Of a stretch of DNA of 24,305 bases, positions 6,266 through 24,305 are shown piece after piece. The translations under genes and the position numbers were made by a program. Under the pieces are notes generated by a model. That model saw only the letters and a program-made list of their open reading frames with translations, did no database searches and was not told the DNA's origin. Every line of letters starts with the position of its first letter. The first letter of the stretch is position 1. Source of the stretch: a virus. The stretch is taken from IMG/VR virus record IMGVR_UViG_3300043466_003756, positions 1-24,305 of that record, one strand, 5' to 3'.

Positions 6266-6871
6266 ATGAAAATAACCGATGAGATAATAGTCAAATTCTT
6301 TGGGCAGGGTCGAGGATTTGTAATGGTCTCGATAAAGAGATGGGGTGGATTCGTTAGCCATGAAGACGATCTTGAGCATGCCCAGTTCTGCGCAATTCGT
6401 AGCGCAGTTTCAGCCAAGAATCGAGAACTTGAATTTGAGAATGAGGTTCACATGGTAAATTACTTGATGAAGACTTGCTATTGGGGATGGTGTGAGGCCG
6501 TAAAAAAGAGGTTGGAAACACCGGTCGTTTTGGAAAGTCAATTAATTCCGGATTGGGCAGATGACGACTATGTGCCGTCCGGTAGACTCGAAGAAAGTGT
6601 TGAGCCTAAAGAAATTGTGTTGAACCCGCACCGGCTGCACGAGGTCGCAAAGAGATTAGTCCTCCACAAATTAGGACCGACCTATGCTCGAATCTTTGAA
6701 TTGCATCATGTTAATGAACTAGCTCTCAAGGAAATCTCTAAAGAGATTGGATTATCAGTTTCGACAATTACGACCAGATTATCAACGATTAGAAGACTAC
6801 TTCATCGTCGATTCAAAAGTTTTGCAAATAGAGATTACAAAATAGGCCAAAACCAACTTCAAAATTTCTAA
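6266..6871 (+). CDS. Sigma-70-family (ECF-like) protein, candidate phage sigma factor
   Basis: This encodes 201 residues. A region-2-like helical segment (HEDDLEHAQFCAIRSAV through YLMKTCYWGWCEAVKKR, about 30-85) is followed by an acidic linker. A convincing region 4 helix-turn-helix lies at about 150-182 (LALKEISKEIGLSVSTITTR, then LSTIRRLLHRRF). The two-domain layout and length match small sigma factors of ECF type. In T4-like phages a divergent small sigma (gp55) directs late transcription from TATAAATA, so this or the 7825 product is a candidate for recognising the ATAAATAA boxes. Its own promoter is of the TATAAT type, fitting expression before the late stage. A terminator follows. Confidence 0.62.
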   Translation: MKITDEIIVKFFGQGRGFVMVSIKRWGGFVSHEDDLEHAQFCAIRSAVSAKNRELEFENEVHMVNYLMKTCYWGWCEAVKKRLETPVVLESQLIPDWADDDYVPSGRLEESVEPKEIVLNPHRLHEVAKRLVLHKLGPTYARIFELHHVNELALKEISKEIGLSVSTITTRLSTIRRLLHRRFKSFANRDYKIGQNQLQNF

Positions 6872-6973: not shown

Positions 6974-7798
6974 ATGAAGCATGTAAAACTATTTGAGAGC
7001 TGGATAAACGAGGCCTTAACTGCAGACCAAATCGCTGCACAAATTCAGACATCAACCGCTGGAATGGGTACAGACGAGGAGGCTTTGGCTGCCGCCATCA
7101 AATCAATTCCAGATGCATATTCATTAGTCAAGATCAATAAGGCCTTGAAGGCAGGTCACGAGGATCCACAGAAATCATGGGAGTATCCAAGCGTTGGAGA
7201 TGCAATCAACGGCGAGCTTGGAATTATGGATTCTGACTACAAGAATCAAATAATGACCCACATCAAGAACATTAGAGCAGAACAATACCTCAACTCATTT
7301 AAAGCACCACCTCCCCCAACCGATCCGGTTATTGCTTCGATCAAGAATCGAGTTATAAAACATGAAGGCTCAAAACCTTTTAAGTATCTGGATTCCAGAA
7401 AGATCCCAACGGTAGGAGTAGGTTTTAATCTTAATCGTGAAGATGCGACTGCTCAGTTAAAAAAGGTAGGAGCTAATCCGGAAAAGGTTAAGGCTGGTAA
7501 ATCCCCATTGACTCAAGAACAGATAACTGCTCTGCTCTTTACTGATCTTAAGCAGGCTAAAGTTAATGCACAGGAATTAGTCCCGAACATGCCAAACCTA
7601 CCAACTCAAGTCCAGGGAGTCTTAACTGAAATGGTTTTCAATTTAGGTAAAAGAGGTCTCTCGGAGTTTACTAATTTCCTAACCCATATCAAACAGAAAA
7701 ACTTTGATGCTGCCTCTGAAGAAATGCTGAGGTCAACTTGGGCAAAGCAGGTAGGAGATCGTGCCAAGACTCTAGCCGATATCATTAAAACGTCCTAA
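6974..7798 (+). CDS. Capsid-targeted annexin-like / T4-type lysozyme fusion
   Basis: This encodes 274 residues. MKHVKLFESWINEA contains both L-F-E (6-8) and I-N-E (11-13), so cleavage after E13 is likely. Residues about 15-106 look like an annexin repeat: GMGTDEEALAAAIKSI at 30-45 is close to the GxGTDE core, and ELGIMDSDYKNQIMTHI suits its later helices. After a Pro linker (PPPPT), residues about 118-274 form a GH24 lysozyme with the T4 triad spacing E131-D140-T146 (HEG, YLD, IPTVGVGFN). It would hydrolyse peptidoglycan. A packaged lysozyme could open the wall during DNA entry, while the annexin-like part may bind membrane or virion. The late promoter supports a structural role. Confidence 0.8.
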   Translation: MKHVKLFESWINEALTADQIAAQIQTSTAGMGTDEEALAAAIKSIPDAYSLVKINKALKAGHEDPQKSWEYPSVGDAINGELGIMDSDYKNQIMTHIKNIRAEQYLNSFKAPPPPTDPVIASIKNRVIKHEGSKPFKYLDSRKIPTVGVGFNLNREDATAQLKKVGANPEKVKAGKSPLTQEQITALLFTDLKQAKVNAQELVPNMPNLPTQVQGVLTEMVFNLGKRGLSEFTNFLTHIKQKNFDAASEEMLRSTWAKQVGDRAKTLADIIKTS

Positions 7799-7824: not shown

Positions 7825-8370
7825 ATGGACTTAAACTTACGCCACACCGACTCATTGGTCGATGCGGCCCGAACTGGAAATCGTCGAGCTCTCACAGATC
7901 TGTGGGATCAGTGGAAACCTCTTGCTTACCAAAACGCTGCTCGATACTTAAAGGATCAAGACGACCTTGATCAAGCAGTAGCTCAAGGGCTGACTAAAGC
8001 TTTCATGAATCTTGATAAGTGGAGCGGCACCGGCCCTTTTGCTGCATGGTTGGCAAGGATCGTGCGTAATGAAACGGTTAATTGGATCAGACAGTTCAAA
8101 ACGAAAACTAAAGCATTCTCGGATATTGAAGGCATTGACATTGAAACCCAAGACGTTCATGCGGATCGACCGGCTTTGAACCTGATTAGGGAAATCGTAA
8201 ATCAACTTCCAACTCGACAGCAATTGGCATTTAAACTTGTTGTCTATGAGGACCTATCGTACGAGCAGGCAGCAGTTCACATGGGTACAACGGCAGGTGC
8301 AGTTAAATCAAACGTGCATGATGCCAAGACCAAATTAAGAAAACAGTTATCCAGGACTGGACTTCGATAA
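7825..8370 (+). CDS. ECF-type RNA polymerase sigma factor
   Basis: This encodes 181 residues. Sigma region 2 spans about 8-92, with DQDDLDQAVAQGLTKAF and the core-binding/promoter-melting stretch FAAWLARIVRNETVNWIR. Region 4 spans about 124-178, with LPTRQQLAFKLVVYEDLSYE followed by QAAVHMGTTAGAVKSNVHDA. This order and length are typical of ECF sigma factors. It would redirect host RNA polymerase to a phage promoter set, TATAAT-like or ATAAATAA. Its TATAAT-type promoter and short leader place it with the early or middle genes, although it lies between two late genes. Confidence 0.85.
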   Translation: MDLNLRHTDSLVDAARTGNRRALTDLWDQWKPLAYQNAARYLKDQDDLDQAVAQGLTKAFMNLDKWSGTGPFAAWLARIVRNETVNWIRQFKTKTKAFSDIEGIDIETQDVHADRPALNLIREIVNQLPTRQQLAFKLVVYEDLSYEQAAVHMGTTAGAVKSNVHDAKTKLRKQLSRTGLR

Positions 8371-14040: not shown

Positions 14041-14499
14041 ATGCGAAAACTATTTTTAACGCTAATTTTATTGGCAGTAACCGGTGTATCCCATGCACAG
14101 ATCGTGATTGATCAAGCTGGAGATAATTGGAGAGCCAAAGTTGACTCAGCAATTACACTAATCAGGACAGCCCCTAGTTTTTATTATGGTGGGTTAATCG
14201 CAGTTTGCGATTCGGTCGCATTTTTTAATGCAAGCTTTTCAAGCTGCAAAGGTTCCTTAAATCAAAAGGGAACCATTTTTGTTTCAGCAAACGATGTTAG
14301 ACTAGGCATTCAGAATATTGCAGCGGTTCTTGTTCATGAAAGTCTACACTTAAACATAGTAATGAAAGGCCACTCTCTTCCGCCAAGAAAGGAAGAGCAC
14401 CTAGCCTACCTGTACGAATGGCAATTCCTAAAGAATTTACCCGGAGCAGACCCATCTTTAATTAAATACGCTGAGGCTCGTATGCTACAATTTAGATAA
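14041..14499 (+). CDS. Secreted zincin-type metalloprotease-like protein
   Basis: This encodes 152 residues. A signal peptide is clear: MRKL, a hydrophobic core (FLTLILLAVTGV) and cleavage after SHA (residue 19), leaving an N-terminal Gln. The mature part contains AVLVHESLHLNI, an HExxH zinc motif (H99, E100, H103), with an acidic pair at 118-119 as a possible third ligand. Two cysteines (56 and 69) could form a disulfide, consistent with export. Substrate unknown. A phage-encoded periplasmic protease expressed from an early-type promoter suggests a role in remodelling the host envelope, not in the virion. Confidence 0.68.
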   Translation: MRKLFLTLILLAVTGVSHAQIVIDQAGDNWRAKVDSAITLIRTAPSFYYGGLIAVCDSVAFFNASFSSCKGSLNQKGTIFVSANDVRLGIQNIAAVLVHESLHLNIVMKGHSLPPRKEEHLAYLYEWQFLKNLPGADPSLIKYAEARMLQFR

Positions 14500-14520
14500 A
14501 ACCTTTTATAAAAAATCGAA

Positions 14521-14526
14521 TACAAT
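14521..14526 (+). promoter_or_regulatory. TATAAT-like promoter (TACAAT) for topoisomerase large subunit
   Basis: GAATACAATAG ends 9 nt before the ATG. Upstream AACCTTTT recalls the 7793 and 9590 elements. Confidence 0.5.
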
Positions 14527-14535
14527 AGAAACTAT

Positions 14536-16371
14536 ATGGCATCTACTAAAGAAATAGGAAAGAAATACCAGCTACTCGATGAGATTGAACACGTTCTCAA
14601 AAGACCTGGAATGTACATTGGTTCCACTAAACCTCACACAGCAAATGAATGGATTCTTGGAGACGGCCTCTATTCAAAAGAGGAATTGACATACAATCCA
14701 GGATTCTTAAAGTTGTTTGACGAAATCATTTCAAATTCAGTTGACGAACACAAGAGGTCTGGTAAAATTAATACAATTAAAGTATCGGTTAGCGCGGACA
14801 CCATCACCGTGTGGGATAACGGAGGAATTCCAGTTGTTCAGCATCCTGAACACAAAGTTTGGATTCCTGAATTAATCTTCTCTAACTTGAGAGCTGGATC
14901 AAACTTCAATGATGATGAGGGTAGAACCGTTGCCGGAACGAATGGAGTGGGAGCTTCATTAGTTAATATTTTCTCAAAGCGATTCGTGATTGACACAGCA
15001 GACGGAAAGAATCGATTCTTACAGACATTCACAGATAACATGTCAAAGAGAACAACTCCAAAGACAAGTAGAACATCTCAAGGCTTTACTGAAATAACCT
15101 ATGTTCCAGATCTTTCAAGATTTGAAATGAAGAAGATCGATGATGCTCATTGTAAGATGATGCGCAAAAGAGTAATCGATATTGCAGCCGCAAATCCAGG
15201 CCTTAAGCTTGAATTTAACGGTGAGAAATATAAGTTCAAGACATTTAAGGAATACGTTGATCTTTACGTGAATGATTCAATTTGGGAAAGATCAAAGGAC
15301 TGGGAAATTTCTTTTGGAGTTTCAAAGGATGGTTTCCAATCAGTGTCATTCGTTAATTCAATCCATACAAAGGACGGAGGAACTCATGAGAGTTATATCT
15401 TAAATCAGGTAATTGAGTATCTCAGGGCCATGATTAAGAAAAAGCACAAGGTCGAGGTTAAACCATCTGAAATAAAGAACCATGTATTTCTCTTCATAAA
15501 CTGTACAGTAATCAATCCAGCATTCTCATCTCAAACAAAAGAAAAGTTAATCACTGAGGCCAAGGATTTCGGTACAAAACATGATGTGACTGAGAAATTT
15601 GCAAAGGCTGTATTTGGATCAGAGGTAATCCAATCTTTACTGGATTGGATTGAACAAAAGAAGAATGCCGAAGAGCGTGCTGAACTACGTAAGCTTAATA
15701 AATCGCTAGCTAGCACTAAAGTACTTAAGTTAATTGATGCAAAGGGCAAGGACCGAAATAAATGCGTGCTTGGAATATTTGAAGGAATGTCAGCTCTTTC
15801 TGCTGTACGTAAGTTCAGAGATCCTCAAACGTTTGGAGCCTTTCCGCTAAAGGGTAAGTTCCTAAACGTTAGTGAGATGACAAACTCTGGGGTCATTCAG
15901 AATGATGAGGTTGTTCAGCTAATGGCTTCATTAGGAATCAAATTAGGAGAGGAACCGGGTGATCTGAGATATGGCAAGGTGTACATATATACTGACGCAG
16001 ATCCGGACGGAGACTCAATTGCCGGTCTGTTAATTAACTTCTTTAATAAGTATTGGCCGGAACTCTTCGAACAGAACCGAATCTTTAAGGTAATGACTCC
16101 ATTGGTCGTTGCTAAAAAGGGCAAGGAGGTAAAACCTTTCTATTCAAACGAAGAATACTCTGACTGGGAAAAGAAAACTGGAGCAAAGGGTTGGGAAGTC
16201 GAATACAAAAAAGGTCTTGCGGCATTGGAAGATGTTGAGTACAGAGACATTATTCATAATCCAGTCTTGGTTAAATTACAGAACGATAAACAATATAAAG
16301 ATAGTCTAAGCGACTGGTTCGGCTCAGATTCTGAACCTCGTAAGGAGAAACTACTTAAACTTTCAATATAA
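14536..16371 (+). CDS. DNA topoisomerase II large subunit (T4 gp39/gp60-like)
   Basis: This encodes 611 residues. The N-terminal GHKL ATPase shows FDEIISNSVDE (61-71, catalytic Glu and Mg-binding Asn), WDNGG (93-97) and GTNGVGASL (134-142). The TOPRIM domain shows CVLGIFEGMSALSAV (E416) and YTDADPDGDSIAG (D487, D489, D491). With the gp52-like subunit it forms the ATP-dependent enzyme that relaxes or decatenates phage DNA. In T4 the large subunit is split into genes 39 and 60; here it is one continuous ORF. A 27-aa ORF overlaps its stop as TAATG. Confidence 0.93.
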   Translation: MASTKEIGKKYQLLDEIEHVLKRPGMYIGSTKPHTANEWILGDGLYSKEELTYNPGFLKLFDEIISNSVDEHKRSGKINTIKVSVSADTITVWDNGGIPVVQHPEHKVWIPELIFSNLRAGSNFNDDEGRTVAGTNGVGASLVNIFSKRFVIDTADGKNRFLQTFTDNMSKRTTPKTSRTSQGFTEITYVPDLSRFEMKKIDDAHCKMMRKRVIDIAAANPGLKLEFNGEKYKFKTFKEYVDLYVNDSIWERSKDWEISFGVSKDGFQSVSFVNSIHTKDGGTHESYILNQVIEYLRAMIKKKHKVEVKPSEIKNHVFLFINCTVINPAFSSQTKEKLITEAKDFGTKHDVTEKFAKAVFGSEVIQSLLDWIEQKKNAEERAELRKLNKSLASTKVLKLIDAKGKDRNKCVLGIFEGMSALSAVRKFRDPQTFGAFPLKGKFLNVSEMTNSGVIQNDEVVQLMASLGIKLGEEPGDLRYGKVYIYTDADPDGDSIAGLLINFFNKYWPELFEQNRIFKVMTPLVVAKKGKEVKPFYSNEEYSDWEKKTGAKGWEVEYKKGLAALEDVEYRDIIHNPVLVKLQNDKQYKDSLSDWFGSDSEPRKEKLLKLSI

Positions 16372-18737: not shown

Positions 18738-19289
18738 ATGATTAAATCATTCACACAATTCATCGCAGGTCTTTTTGAAAAGAAGGGCGATTCTCATTCC
18801 TATGGCTGTGCCATGGTGTATTTCGATTTTCCACAGATGCAGGAATTTCATGCTGAAATAGATTCAGACGACGTTTATACTGAAGAAGGCGATCGATCTT
18901 TTGGATTAGAGGATGAACCTCACACCACTCTACTCTACGGCCTTCACTCAAACGAGATCAATGACGATACTGTAATGGACATTTGTAAGTCTAGACCAAT
19001 AGGTCCGTTGATGTTAGTCAATGCTTCTCTATTTGAAAATGAGAAATACGATGTACTGAAGTTCGATGTTCAGAACTCAGCTCTATACGAAATTAATGCC
19101 AAGCTTAGCGAACTACCTCACACCACCAATTTTCCGGACTATCATCCACATGCGACGATCGGTTACTTAAAACCTGGAATGGGCAAGAAATACGTTGAGA
19201 AATTCAAGAACAAAGCGTATGAGGTAAATCCAAACAAGATAGTTTACTCAAAACCGGATGGCGATCGTATAGAAGAATCATGGAATTAA
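18738..19289 (+). CDS. 2H phosphoesterase, Acb1 (anti-CBASS)-like candidate
   Basis: This encodes 183 residues. Two H-x-T motifs define a 2H phosphoesterase: EPHTTLLYGL (H62, T64) and YHPHATIGYLKPG (H138, T140). The YFDFPQMQEFHAEID and GLEDEPHTTLLYG stretches are of the phage type that includes Acb1 (T4 57B), which cleaves cyclic oligonucleotide signals of CBASS. Function here is inferred. The N-terminus MIKSFTQFIAGLFEKK resembles the window's targeting peptides and has L-F-E at 12-14, but no late box precedes it, so packaging is doubtful. It overlaps the thioesterase gene by 10 nt. Confidence 0.75.
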   Translation: MIKSFTQFIAGLFEKKGDSHSYGCAMVYFDFPQMQEFHAEIDSDDVYTEEGDRSFGLEDEPHTTLLYGLHSNEINDDTVMDICKSRPIGPLMLVNASLFENEKYDVLKFDVQNSALYEINAKLSELPHTTNFPDYHPHATIGYLKPGMGKKYVEKFKNKAYEVNPNKIVYSKPDGDRIEESWN

Positions 19290-22731: not shown

Positions 22732-22737
22732 TTTTGG

Positions 22738-22745
22738 ATAAATAA
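22738..22745 (+). promoter_or_regulatory. Late promoter box for the cohesin/dockerin-like gene
   Basis: GGATAAATAAT lies 17 nt before the ATG and sits inside the outer inverted repeat. Confidence 0.68.
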
Positions 22746-22762: not shown

Positions 22763-24305
22763 ATGAAACAAATCCAAGCTTTATTTCTTGGGGTGTGCCT
22801 CTTATTAGTAGGCATTTCCAATCAGGTTGCTGCACAAACTTGTCCAGTGGCACCAACCTCAGCAACACCTTACGTCCTGATCGATTCTTCGTACCAGGTC
22901 GGAACTGTTGCTTCGGGCAAAACCTATGCTAGCTTCTGCTATGCCAATCCAACTTCCACAAAAATTACAGGTCTCCAGTTCAGAGTATGGTATGACAAGA
23001 CTGCATTTGCCGGCGCAAATCCAGTTGTTACCTCAGCCAATACTAGCTGGTCACAAAGCCTGAATTACGTGGTTGACTCCACTGAGGGTAATATCACAAT
23101 TACCATCGCGTACACCGGTTCTAGTTCAACATTCACTATTCCAGACGGAAGACAATTCAACGTTGAATTTACTCACTCAATAAACTTCCACACGTACACT
23201 TCAATTTCAAATCTCGCGATTACCGGAACAACCACTTTCCCAGCGAGCTCTGCGAACATTAACGGTTTAGATGACACATTAGCTCTTTATAGTTACGGTG
23301 GAGTCATGAAAAACGTTAAGCTTAATTTTCGTGGTGAATTCGCAAACGTGACTGGATCTCCAGCAAAGAACTTAACTCTGGCTTTAGAGAAAAAGCCTAA
23401 AACTGGTTCTACTTGGACTCAGGTTGCTACCTACACAACTAACACTCTAGGTAAATTCTCTTTCTCAGAAGATGTTGATACTACTTACTATGATGCTCGC
23501 CTCTATGTTAAAGGTGATACTCTTAGCGTAGGTAACATCGTCTCAACCGCAGATGCTCAAAAAATCAATGACTGGATGTTAGGAGTAGCTACTCCTACTG
23601 GTTTTGACTACTACACAGGAGACGTTAACGGATCAAACGGAATTACCGTTGCTGACGTTTACGGTGTATTCGGAAGAATCGCTGGCCGTTTCAGCACATG
23701 GCCGAATTCTGTTAAAGATGTGTTATTCTTCTCTGCTTCAGAATACTCAACAATTAACGGATCATCTACTAATTATAGATCAACCATTCCAGGTACAACC
23801 GAACTTTATTACACAATTAGTGGCGGAGTAGTAGACTCTGTTAAGTTCTATGTTGCTTCTCCTGGTGATGCTAACGGTACCGGTTATAACATGGCACGTT
23901 TAACTCCAATTCCAATTGTTAACCCAGCAAATGCTCACAAATACGTAATTGATGAAACCGTTGAATACGATAATTTAACTCTTTCAGTAATGGAGGTTAA
24001 CGTTCCTAAATTATCAGTAGAAGAAGGTAACCTAGTTAATATTCCAGTAAAGGTTTTAACTAACGGTTCGGATCGAGTAGGAGCTCTTCAATTAGCTCTA
24101 AAGTACGATGAATCTCTATTGGAGTTCAGAGGTGTTAACGGCACTGAAAAATCTCAAAAATGGATGGCATTCGTTAATCCATCGAATGGAGTAGTTGAAT
24201 GGGGAGGATTTGATCCAACCGGTAAAGATAACTTAATGAACAATGGCGAAGAAGTAGTTACTATTCAATTCGCAGCACTTAAGCCTCAAGACGAATGGGG
24301 TAAAA
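22763..24305 (+). CDS. Exported protein with dockerin-like and cohesin-like modules (partial)
   Basis: The reading frame stays open for 514 codons to the window edge, so the 3' end is missing. A signal peptide (MKQIQALFLGVCLLLVGISN) is predicted to be cut after VAA (residue 24). A beta-rich domain follows (about 27-190), then a possible carboxypeptidase-regulatory-like beta domain (about 195-255). Residues about 250-312 hold two related segments, GDTLSVGNIVSTADAQKIND and GDVNGSNGITVADVYGVFGR. The second has D287, N289 and D298 in dockerin calcium-loop positions. From about 413 comes a cohesin-like start (LSVEEGNLVNIPVKV, then GALQLALKYDESLLEFRGV). Probably displayed on the cell or virion surface; the role is open. 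Confidence 0.72.
   Translation, partial: MKQIQALFLGVCLLLVGISNQVAAQTCPVAPTSATPYVLIDSSYQVGTVASGKTYASFCYANPTSTKITGLQFRVWYDKTAFAGANPVVTSANTSWSQSLNYVVDSTEGNITITIAYTGSSSTFTIPDGRQFNVEFTHSINFHTYTSISNLAITGTTTFPASSANINGLDDTLALYSYGGVMKNVKLNFRGEFANVTGSPAKNLTLALEKKPKTGSTWTQVATYTTNTLGKFSFSEDVDTTYYDARLYVKGDTLSVGNIVSTADAQKINDWMLGVATPTGFDYYTGDVNGSNGITVADVYGVFGRIAGRFSTWPNSVKDVLFFSASEYSTINGSSTNYRSTIPGTTELYYTISGGVVDSVKFYVASPGDANGTGYNMARLTPIPIVNPANAHKYVIDETVEYDNLTLSVMEVNVPKLSVEEGNLVNIPVKVLTNGSDRVGALQLALKYDESLLEFRGVNGTEKSQKWMAFVNPSNGVVEWGGFDPTGKDNLMNNGEEVVTIQFAALKPQDEWGK

Follow-up and report, generated by a model that had tools for sequence, protein, structure and literature searches.

The locus and completion of the truncated gene

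The window analysed here (24,305 nucleotides) is an entire 24.3-kb viral contig. The gene of interest, which we call the scaffold gene, lies on its plus strand at 22763–24305, where it is open at the 3′ end and encodes 514 residues. A second contig, IMGVR_UViG_3300043436_004382 (L002), which shows a single mismatch to the window across 11,543 shared bases, supplies the missing 3′ end and brings the full scaffold protein to 640 residues. The part absent from the window and present in L002 comprises the remainder of a cohesin domain (to residue 541) and a C-terminal domain (CTD) of type A of the type IX secretion system (T9SS, residues 560–640), a signal that was invisible in the truncated gene on which the original prediction was based. 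That the gene is phage-encoded, as this prediction had it, agrees with the matches to an endolysin and a phage-type topoisomerase II in the window and with homologues in about 150 viral loci. Since these loci share the gene and a separate contig carries it onward, host contamination or misassembly, including a misjoined host segment, is rejected.

An GATAAATA motif is found at 22737–22744 on the plus strand, 26 nt before the scaffold start codon. The GATAAATA/TATAAATA motif occurs seven times in the window (at 76, 474, 2854, 4546, 10638, 12851 and 22737), on the plus strand only and each time 13–34 nt before a gene, a placement for which 4.9% of the window qualifies. We take this motif to resemble the late promoter of phage T4, and its position suggests late expression of the scaffold gene. 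The late control proposed originally is plausible for this phage, and less clearly so for the family as a whole, because the motif lies within 120 bp upstream of only 12 of 63 scaffold relatives (background, 1.8% per 150 bp).

Domain organization of the scaffold protein

By sequence inspection, the scaffold begins, as had been claimed, with a Sec signal peptide (residues 1–24, 22763–22834, plus strand), with cleavage at MKQIQALFLGVCLLLVGISNQVAA/QT. It is followed on the same strand by a divergent, cohesin-like N-terminal domain (residues ~28–180), a transthyretin/CPRD-like stretch (residues ~183–250), a dockerin-like module (residues 251–310, 23513–23692) and a second cohesin domain (residues 410–541 in the full protein; 23990–24305, where it is cut by the window end). 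The T9SS type A sorting domain (residues 560–640) is present in L002 only. The transthyretin-like matches are weak (E 0.007–0.03), and a stand-alone CarboxypepD/transthyretin function for this stretch was dropped.

The second cohesin domain is a bona fide cohesin. It matches the Pfam cohesin profile PF00963 with an E-value of 8.5e-12 in the truncated protein and 2.4e-12 in the complete one (47.7 bits, cut-off 24.1), and the same profile scores above cut-off in 17 of 18 phage records and is matched, at E up to 1, in eight of nine family members. The AF2 model of the whole scaffold, computed from a nine-row alignment, is of low confidence (mean pLDDT 51). Its cohesin region (residues 412–539), where local model confidence is moderate, superimposes on 6kgc_A with a Z-score of 10.6 (2.8 Å, 122 residues) and on solved cohesins with Z of about 10.5 over ~122 residues at 2.7–2.9 Å. 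The cohesin predicted to start at residue 413 is thereby placed at residue 410 and upheld by both profile and fold. The N-terminal domain, which the original prediction had missed, is probably a second, divergent cohesin, because 11 of 18 phage records have a weak Pfam cohesin match there, with scores under the cut-off; a direct hhalign comparison of the two domains gives a probability of 3% and an E-value of 0.013.

The C-terminal domain of the L002 protein scores above cut-off with both TIGR04183 (35.9 bits, cut-off 23) and PF18962 (31.9 bits, cut-off 27), as does that of the cultured Flavobacterium phage vB_FspM_immuto (Immuto). Por_Secre_tail is found in all nine scaffold family members, and the 17 phage records in which T9SS CTDs were counted contain exactly one such locus each, namely this one. 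A homologue in BFVD, A0A6J5M064, is named by its sorting domain alone. These matches indicate that the scaffold is a predicted cargo of the host type IX secretion system, and the type A domain points to a surface route via this system rather than to a virion protein. A search of the phages for the T9SS gene SprA gave no match and carries no weight, because its control gave none either.

The dockerin-like module

The original prediction described a duplicated dockerin segment. Two GD-x(10–11)-D segments are indeed present, at residues 251–264 and 286–298, but the second alone forms a full dockerin-type calcium loop (D287-x-N289-x-S291...D298). In this loop D1, N3 and D12 are invariant in 41 of 41 representatives, and position 5 is mostly S, D or T. 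Loop 1, with 13 residues, exceeds the expected length by one; its position 3 is hydrophobic, and it carries no ligands at positions 3 and 5, so that of the two F-hand calcium loops expected of a type I dockerin (PF00404) only loop 2 qualifies.

A relaxed loop pattern is found in 128 of 143 scaffold homologues, compared to 2.8% of shuffled scaffold segments, and in 126 of 131 copies of a second exported protein encoded nearby (the partner, see below), whose loops can take a textbook form, for example DVNGDGKVTVSD. Among Pfam families, Dockerin_1 matches the partner modules most often (13 of 22, best E 6.6e-6); where bit scores are given, the highest is 22.3 and another is 20.2, against a curated cut-off of 22.9. 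No Pfam dockerin match was obtained for the scaffold protein of the window, nor a Dockerin_1 match in the L002 record, and the scaffold module has a weak PDB match to the ScaB dockerin 4uyp_B. Because the module has a single canonical loop and its Pfam scores are mostly below cut-off, we describe it as dockerin-like, with a single loop that looks functional, and do not claim a standard type I dockerin.

A conserved cassette with a CsgG-fold protein

The scaffold is the first gene of a cassette of six to seven genes in large Bacteroidota phages, whose order is near-constant over 157 loci. It is followed by one or two genes for small membrane-type proteins (P112, sometimes also P134). The other members are a CsgG-like gene (L002, 12890–13606), a low-complexity protein with a signal peptide, a long linker rich in Ser and Gly and a conserved C-terminal region, the partner, which is encoded three to five genes downstream of the scaffold, and, as the last gene, a secreted protein of 150–165 residues. 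The scaffold search yielded 63 viral loci and the CsgG-like search, with 330 relatives above threshold, yielded 80, some of them on the same contigs. The scaffold is present in 79 of the 80 loci fetched solely via the CsgG-like gene, and the remaining locus starts at a contig end.

A PDB sequence search with the CsgG-like profile gave no match, and a fold search then found CsgG. The predicted model (pLDDT 69) has CsgG (4uv2) as its best Foldseek match (E 8e-7) and aligns with it over 150 residues at 3.0 Å (Z 12.2), which shows a CsgG fold at the level of the model. Pfam CsgG (PF03783) matches four of ten members (best E 9.7e-4), the L002 member not being among them. Searches for CsgF or other PDB relatives of the low-complexity protein and of the 165-residue protein returned low-complexity or chance matches only.

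The cassette is apparently restricted to phages. Of 395 sampled Bacteroidia genomes, 394 lack the CsgG-like family and the N-terminal 379 residues of the scaffold, apart from short marginal scaffold matches in two further genomes (E 5e-5 and 1e-3). The sole exception (L156; CAIWBA010000291.1, 8001–9929) is a 254-kb phage contig binned in a Bacteroidetes MAG, with genes for a phage-type topoisomerase, an endolysin and a PRPP synthetase resembling those of the window. The L156 cassette holds an additional barrel-like exported protein (14198–15019).

A split scaffold in Immuto and exchange of partner domains

In Immuto, the scaffold is split into two genes, and both products start with a signal peptide: gp014 consists of the N-terminal domain, the transthyretin-like stretch and the dockerin-like module, and gp015 of the cohesin and the CTD. 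A third protein, gp013, combines a C-type lectin with a dockerin-like module. The location of the cohesin and the dockerin-like part on separate chains favours docking between chains. At the site that corresponds to the Immuto gene break, three related phages carry an in-frame TGA between the dockerin-like module and the cohesin (L105, 7081–7140; L090, 7310–7370; L084, ~1745). The junction reads GTG-I-TGA-ATG-A-R-L, the piece downstream has no signal peptide, and readthrough or reinitiation may operate there.

The partner has a signal peptide and no T9SS CTD. Its N-terminal domain differs among phages and may be a C-type lectin, laminin-G/ConA-like, PA14, GEVED or Ig_7 domain; an EPN...WND-type motif of C-type lectins occurs in 88 of 131 partner proteins. 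No glycoside hydrolase was found among two sets of ten partner proteins, which contain lectin, PA14, GEVED, laminin-G or unassigned domains instead. Among 63 pairs of phages whose CsgG-like proteins are at least 90% identical, 16 have partner N-termini of less than 35% identity; in one such pair (L037 and L040), the scaffold and the CsgG-like protein are both 94% identical and the partner N-terminus is 16% identical. Partner N-termini that diverge beside a constant scaffold and CsgG-like protein are what is expected of a binder that can be swapped on an unchanging platform. In a swapped partner the dockerin-like module itself can drop to ~30% identity while the scaffold stays at ~94%, which strains the idea of a tight, specific pair.

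A putative surface-display system

We consider it somewhat more probable than the reverse that the cassette is a phage-specific, probably late, surface-display system and that the gene in the window encodes its scaffold. Host Sec would export the scaffold by means of its signal peptide, and the type A CTD would pass it to the host T9SS, which would place it on the external side of the outer membrane. There, the cohesin or cohesins of the scaffold may bind the dockerin-like C-terminus of the partner in a calcium-dependent manner, and the interchangeable N-terminal domain of the partner, presumably a sugar-binding one, would coat the infected cell with a glycan binder of the phage's choice. The combination of cohesin and dockerin-like modules in an exported protein, which the original prediction had recognized, is retained in this account, but its emphasis on self-assembly is revised. 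Assembly on a surface is sensible, but the two modules need not share a chain, as Immuto shows, and the likelier docking partner is the second dockerin-like protein with its swappable lectin-type domains, so that self-assembly is better read as a scaffold with arms.

Docking is the step that separates this account from its best-surviving alternative, in which the T9SS cargo works on its own as an adhesive or receptor-masking coat and the cohesin and dockerin-like parts never dock but serve as stable spacers; β-sandwich and calcium-stabilised spacers are common in Bacteroidota secreted proteins. The single loop and mostly sub-threshold scores of the dockerin-like module, the divergence of the partner module beside a conserved scaffold, and the existence of cohesins outside cellulosomes (the non-cellulosomal 2xdh is among the fold matches) are all compatible with such spacers. 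However, two exported proteins of one cassette share the transthyretin–dockerin-like module beside a true cohesin, the calcium ligands are invariant, and Immuto naturally separates the cohesin from the dockerin-like part, which leaves the spacer explanation unlikely.

In the surface-display account, the CsgG-fold, low-complexity and small proteins could provide the partner's route or platform; whether the partner would cross the outer membrane through the CsgG-fold pore or be carried on the scaffold is a guess. The same CsgG-fold pore, together with the late promoter and the pair of small membrane proteins, could also belong to a lysis or release device that acts at the outer membrane late in infection, with the scaffold and lectin proteins helping to disrupt the surface. 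A lysis hypothesis has been published for phage CsgGF (Melnitz, PMC9004378), and an endolysin gene adjoins the cassette in the window and lies within ~10 kb of it in Immuto. The Immuto cassette, however, adjoins replication and ribonucleotide-reductase genes rather than the endolysin gene, and a T9SS-sorted cohesin protein and swappable lectin domains are left unexplained, so that we regard a lysis device as improbable. A location in the virion, as capsid decorations or tail adhesins with signal peptides and CTDs as remnants of bacterial origin, is the least probable reading: Ig-like, lectin and PA14-type domains do decorate phage particles and there are weak matches to tail- or baseplate-type proteins in a viral structure library, but the export signals are retained above cut-off although only about half of the residues are shared in the family, persist in the split Immuto version, and would make a Sec-exported protein unavailable to virion assembly in the cytoplasm. 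No virion proteomics was found in the paper on phages of LMO8, the host strain of Immuto.

If surface display is correct, infected cells wear a glycan-binding coat chosen by the phage, a trait relevant to superinfection exclusion, to aggregation and to the ecology of phages in lakes and seas. The benefit is probably either masking of receptor glycans, by which superinfection and readsorption to debris would be avoided, or the sticking together of sibling cells for the released virions; adhesion and capture are slightly favoured over masking because expression looks late. The most specific form of the proposal, that a large clade of Bacteroidota phages has a cellulosome-like display system of its own and uses a T9SS-placed cohesin scaffold and exchangeable dockerin-tagged lectins, delivered with the aid of a CsgG-fold pore, to alter what the infected cell adheres to or to hide its receptors, is put forward tentatively, as possible but short of probable.

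Relation to known systems

Like the cellulosomes of Clostridium/Acetivibrio and Ruminococcus, the cassette comprises a true cohesin, a dockerin-type calcium loop, an anchored scaffold and an invariant docking module fused to variable effector domains, and the Ig-like module beside the dockerin-like one recalls X-dockerin dyads. Unlike cellulosomes, it is phage-encoded, has a T9SS CTD in place of SLH or sortase anchoring, one degenerate F-hand and just one or two cohesins, and its effectors are lectin-like binders without enzymes or CBM3.

T9SS cargo has been reported in Cryophage (Bellas et al. 2020, PMC7468147) and noted in crAss-BACON phages (PMC6949934). There, too, a type A sorting domain is presumed to hijack the host and superinfection exclusion is proposed, but the cargoes are an endoglucanase, GH39, PA14 or BACON, and the cited parts of these papers mention no cohesin, dockerin or CsgG. 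Phage csgGF genes of pelagimyophages (PMC7029224) and the methylophage Melnitz (PMC9004378), discussed in terms of "sibling capture" and lysis, likewise encode a CsgG-fold protein and lie in a conserved operon beside genes of unknown function. They differ in pairing CsgG with CsgF and in their Proteobacteria hosts, and T9SS cargo, a cohesin or a lectin is undescribed there. Immuto gp013–gp019 are a cultured homologue of the same cassette, with the difference that the scaffold is split and the lectin gene comes first; their annotations read "lectin C-type", "cohesin domain-containing" or hypothetical.

No phage cohesin–dockerin system was found in the open-access literature searched, within which the combination of phage T9SS cargo, a CsgG pore and cohesin–dockerin modules appears to be undescribed. 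The cassette unites these three elements, previously known apart, and adds a variable lectin slot. It also offers a hypothesis for the puzzling CsgG genes of phages, which would go together with secreted adhesive proteins. Immuto with Flavobacterium sp. LMO8 provides a cultured pair in which the cassette can be studied.

Other genes on the contig

The product of 2026–2853 contains a WRGL...FSSDRDVAARFG pattern that resembles a mono-ADP-ribosyltransferase and has no Pfam match at E 0.01. Pfam links the product of 18738–19289 weakly to 2H phosphoesterases, among them the anti-CBASS protein Acb1 (E 3.4e-4, below cut-off). A short N-terminus, M-K-x-I/L-K-L-F-E or K-L-I-K-x-F-x-Q-F-V-N-E, recurs in many predicted proteins (gene starts at 109, 508, 1483, 2867, 3904, 6974, 8423 and 12865). 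It recalls the capsid-targeting sequence of T4, and these proteins, one of which (6974–7798) has a phage lysozyme domain, are possible internal proteins of the head. Two sigma-70-type proteins, encoded at 6266–6871 (region 4) and 7825–8370 (regions 2 and 4), are possible promoter-specificity factors of the phage.
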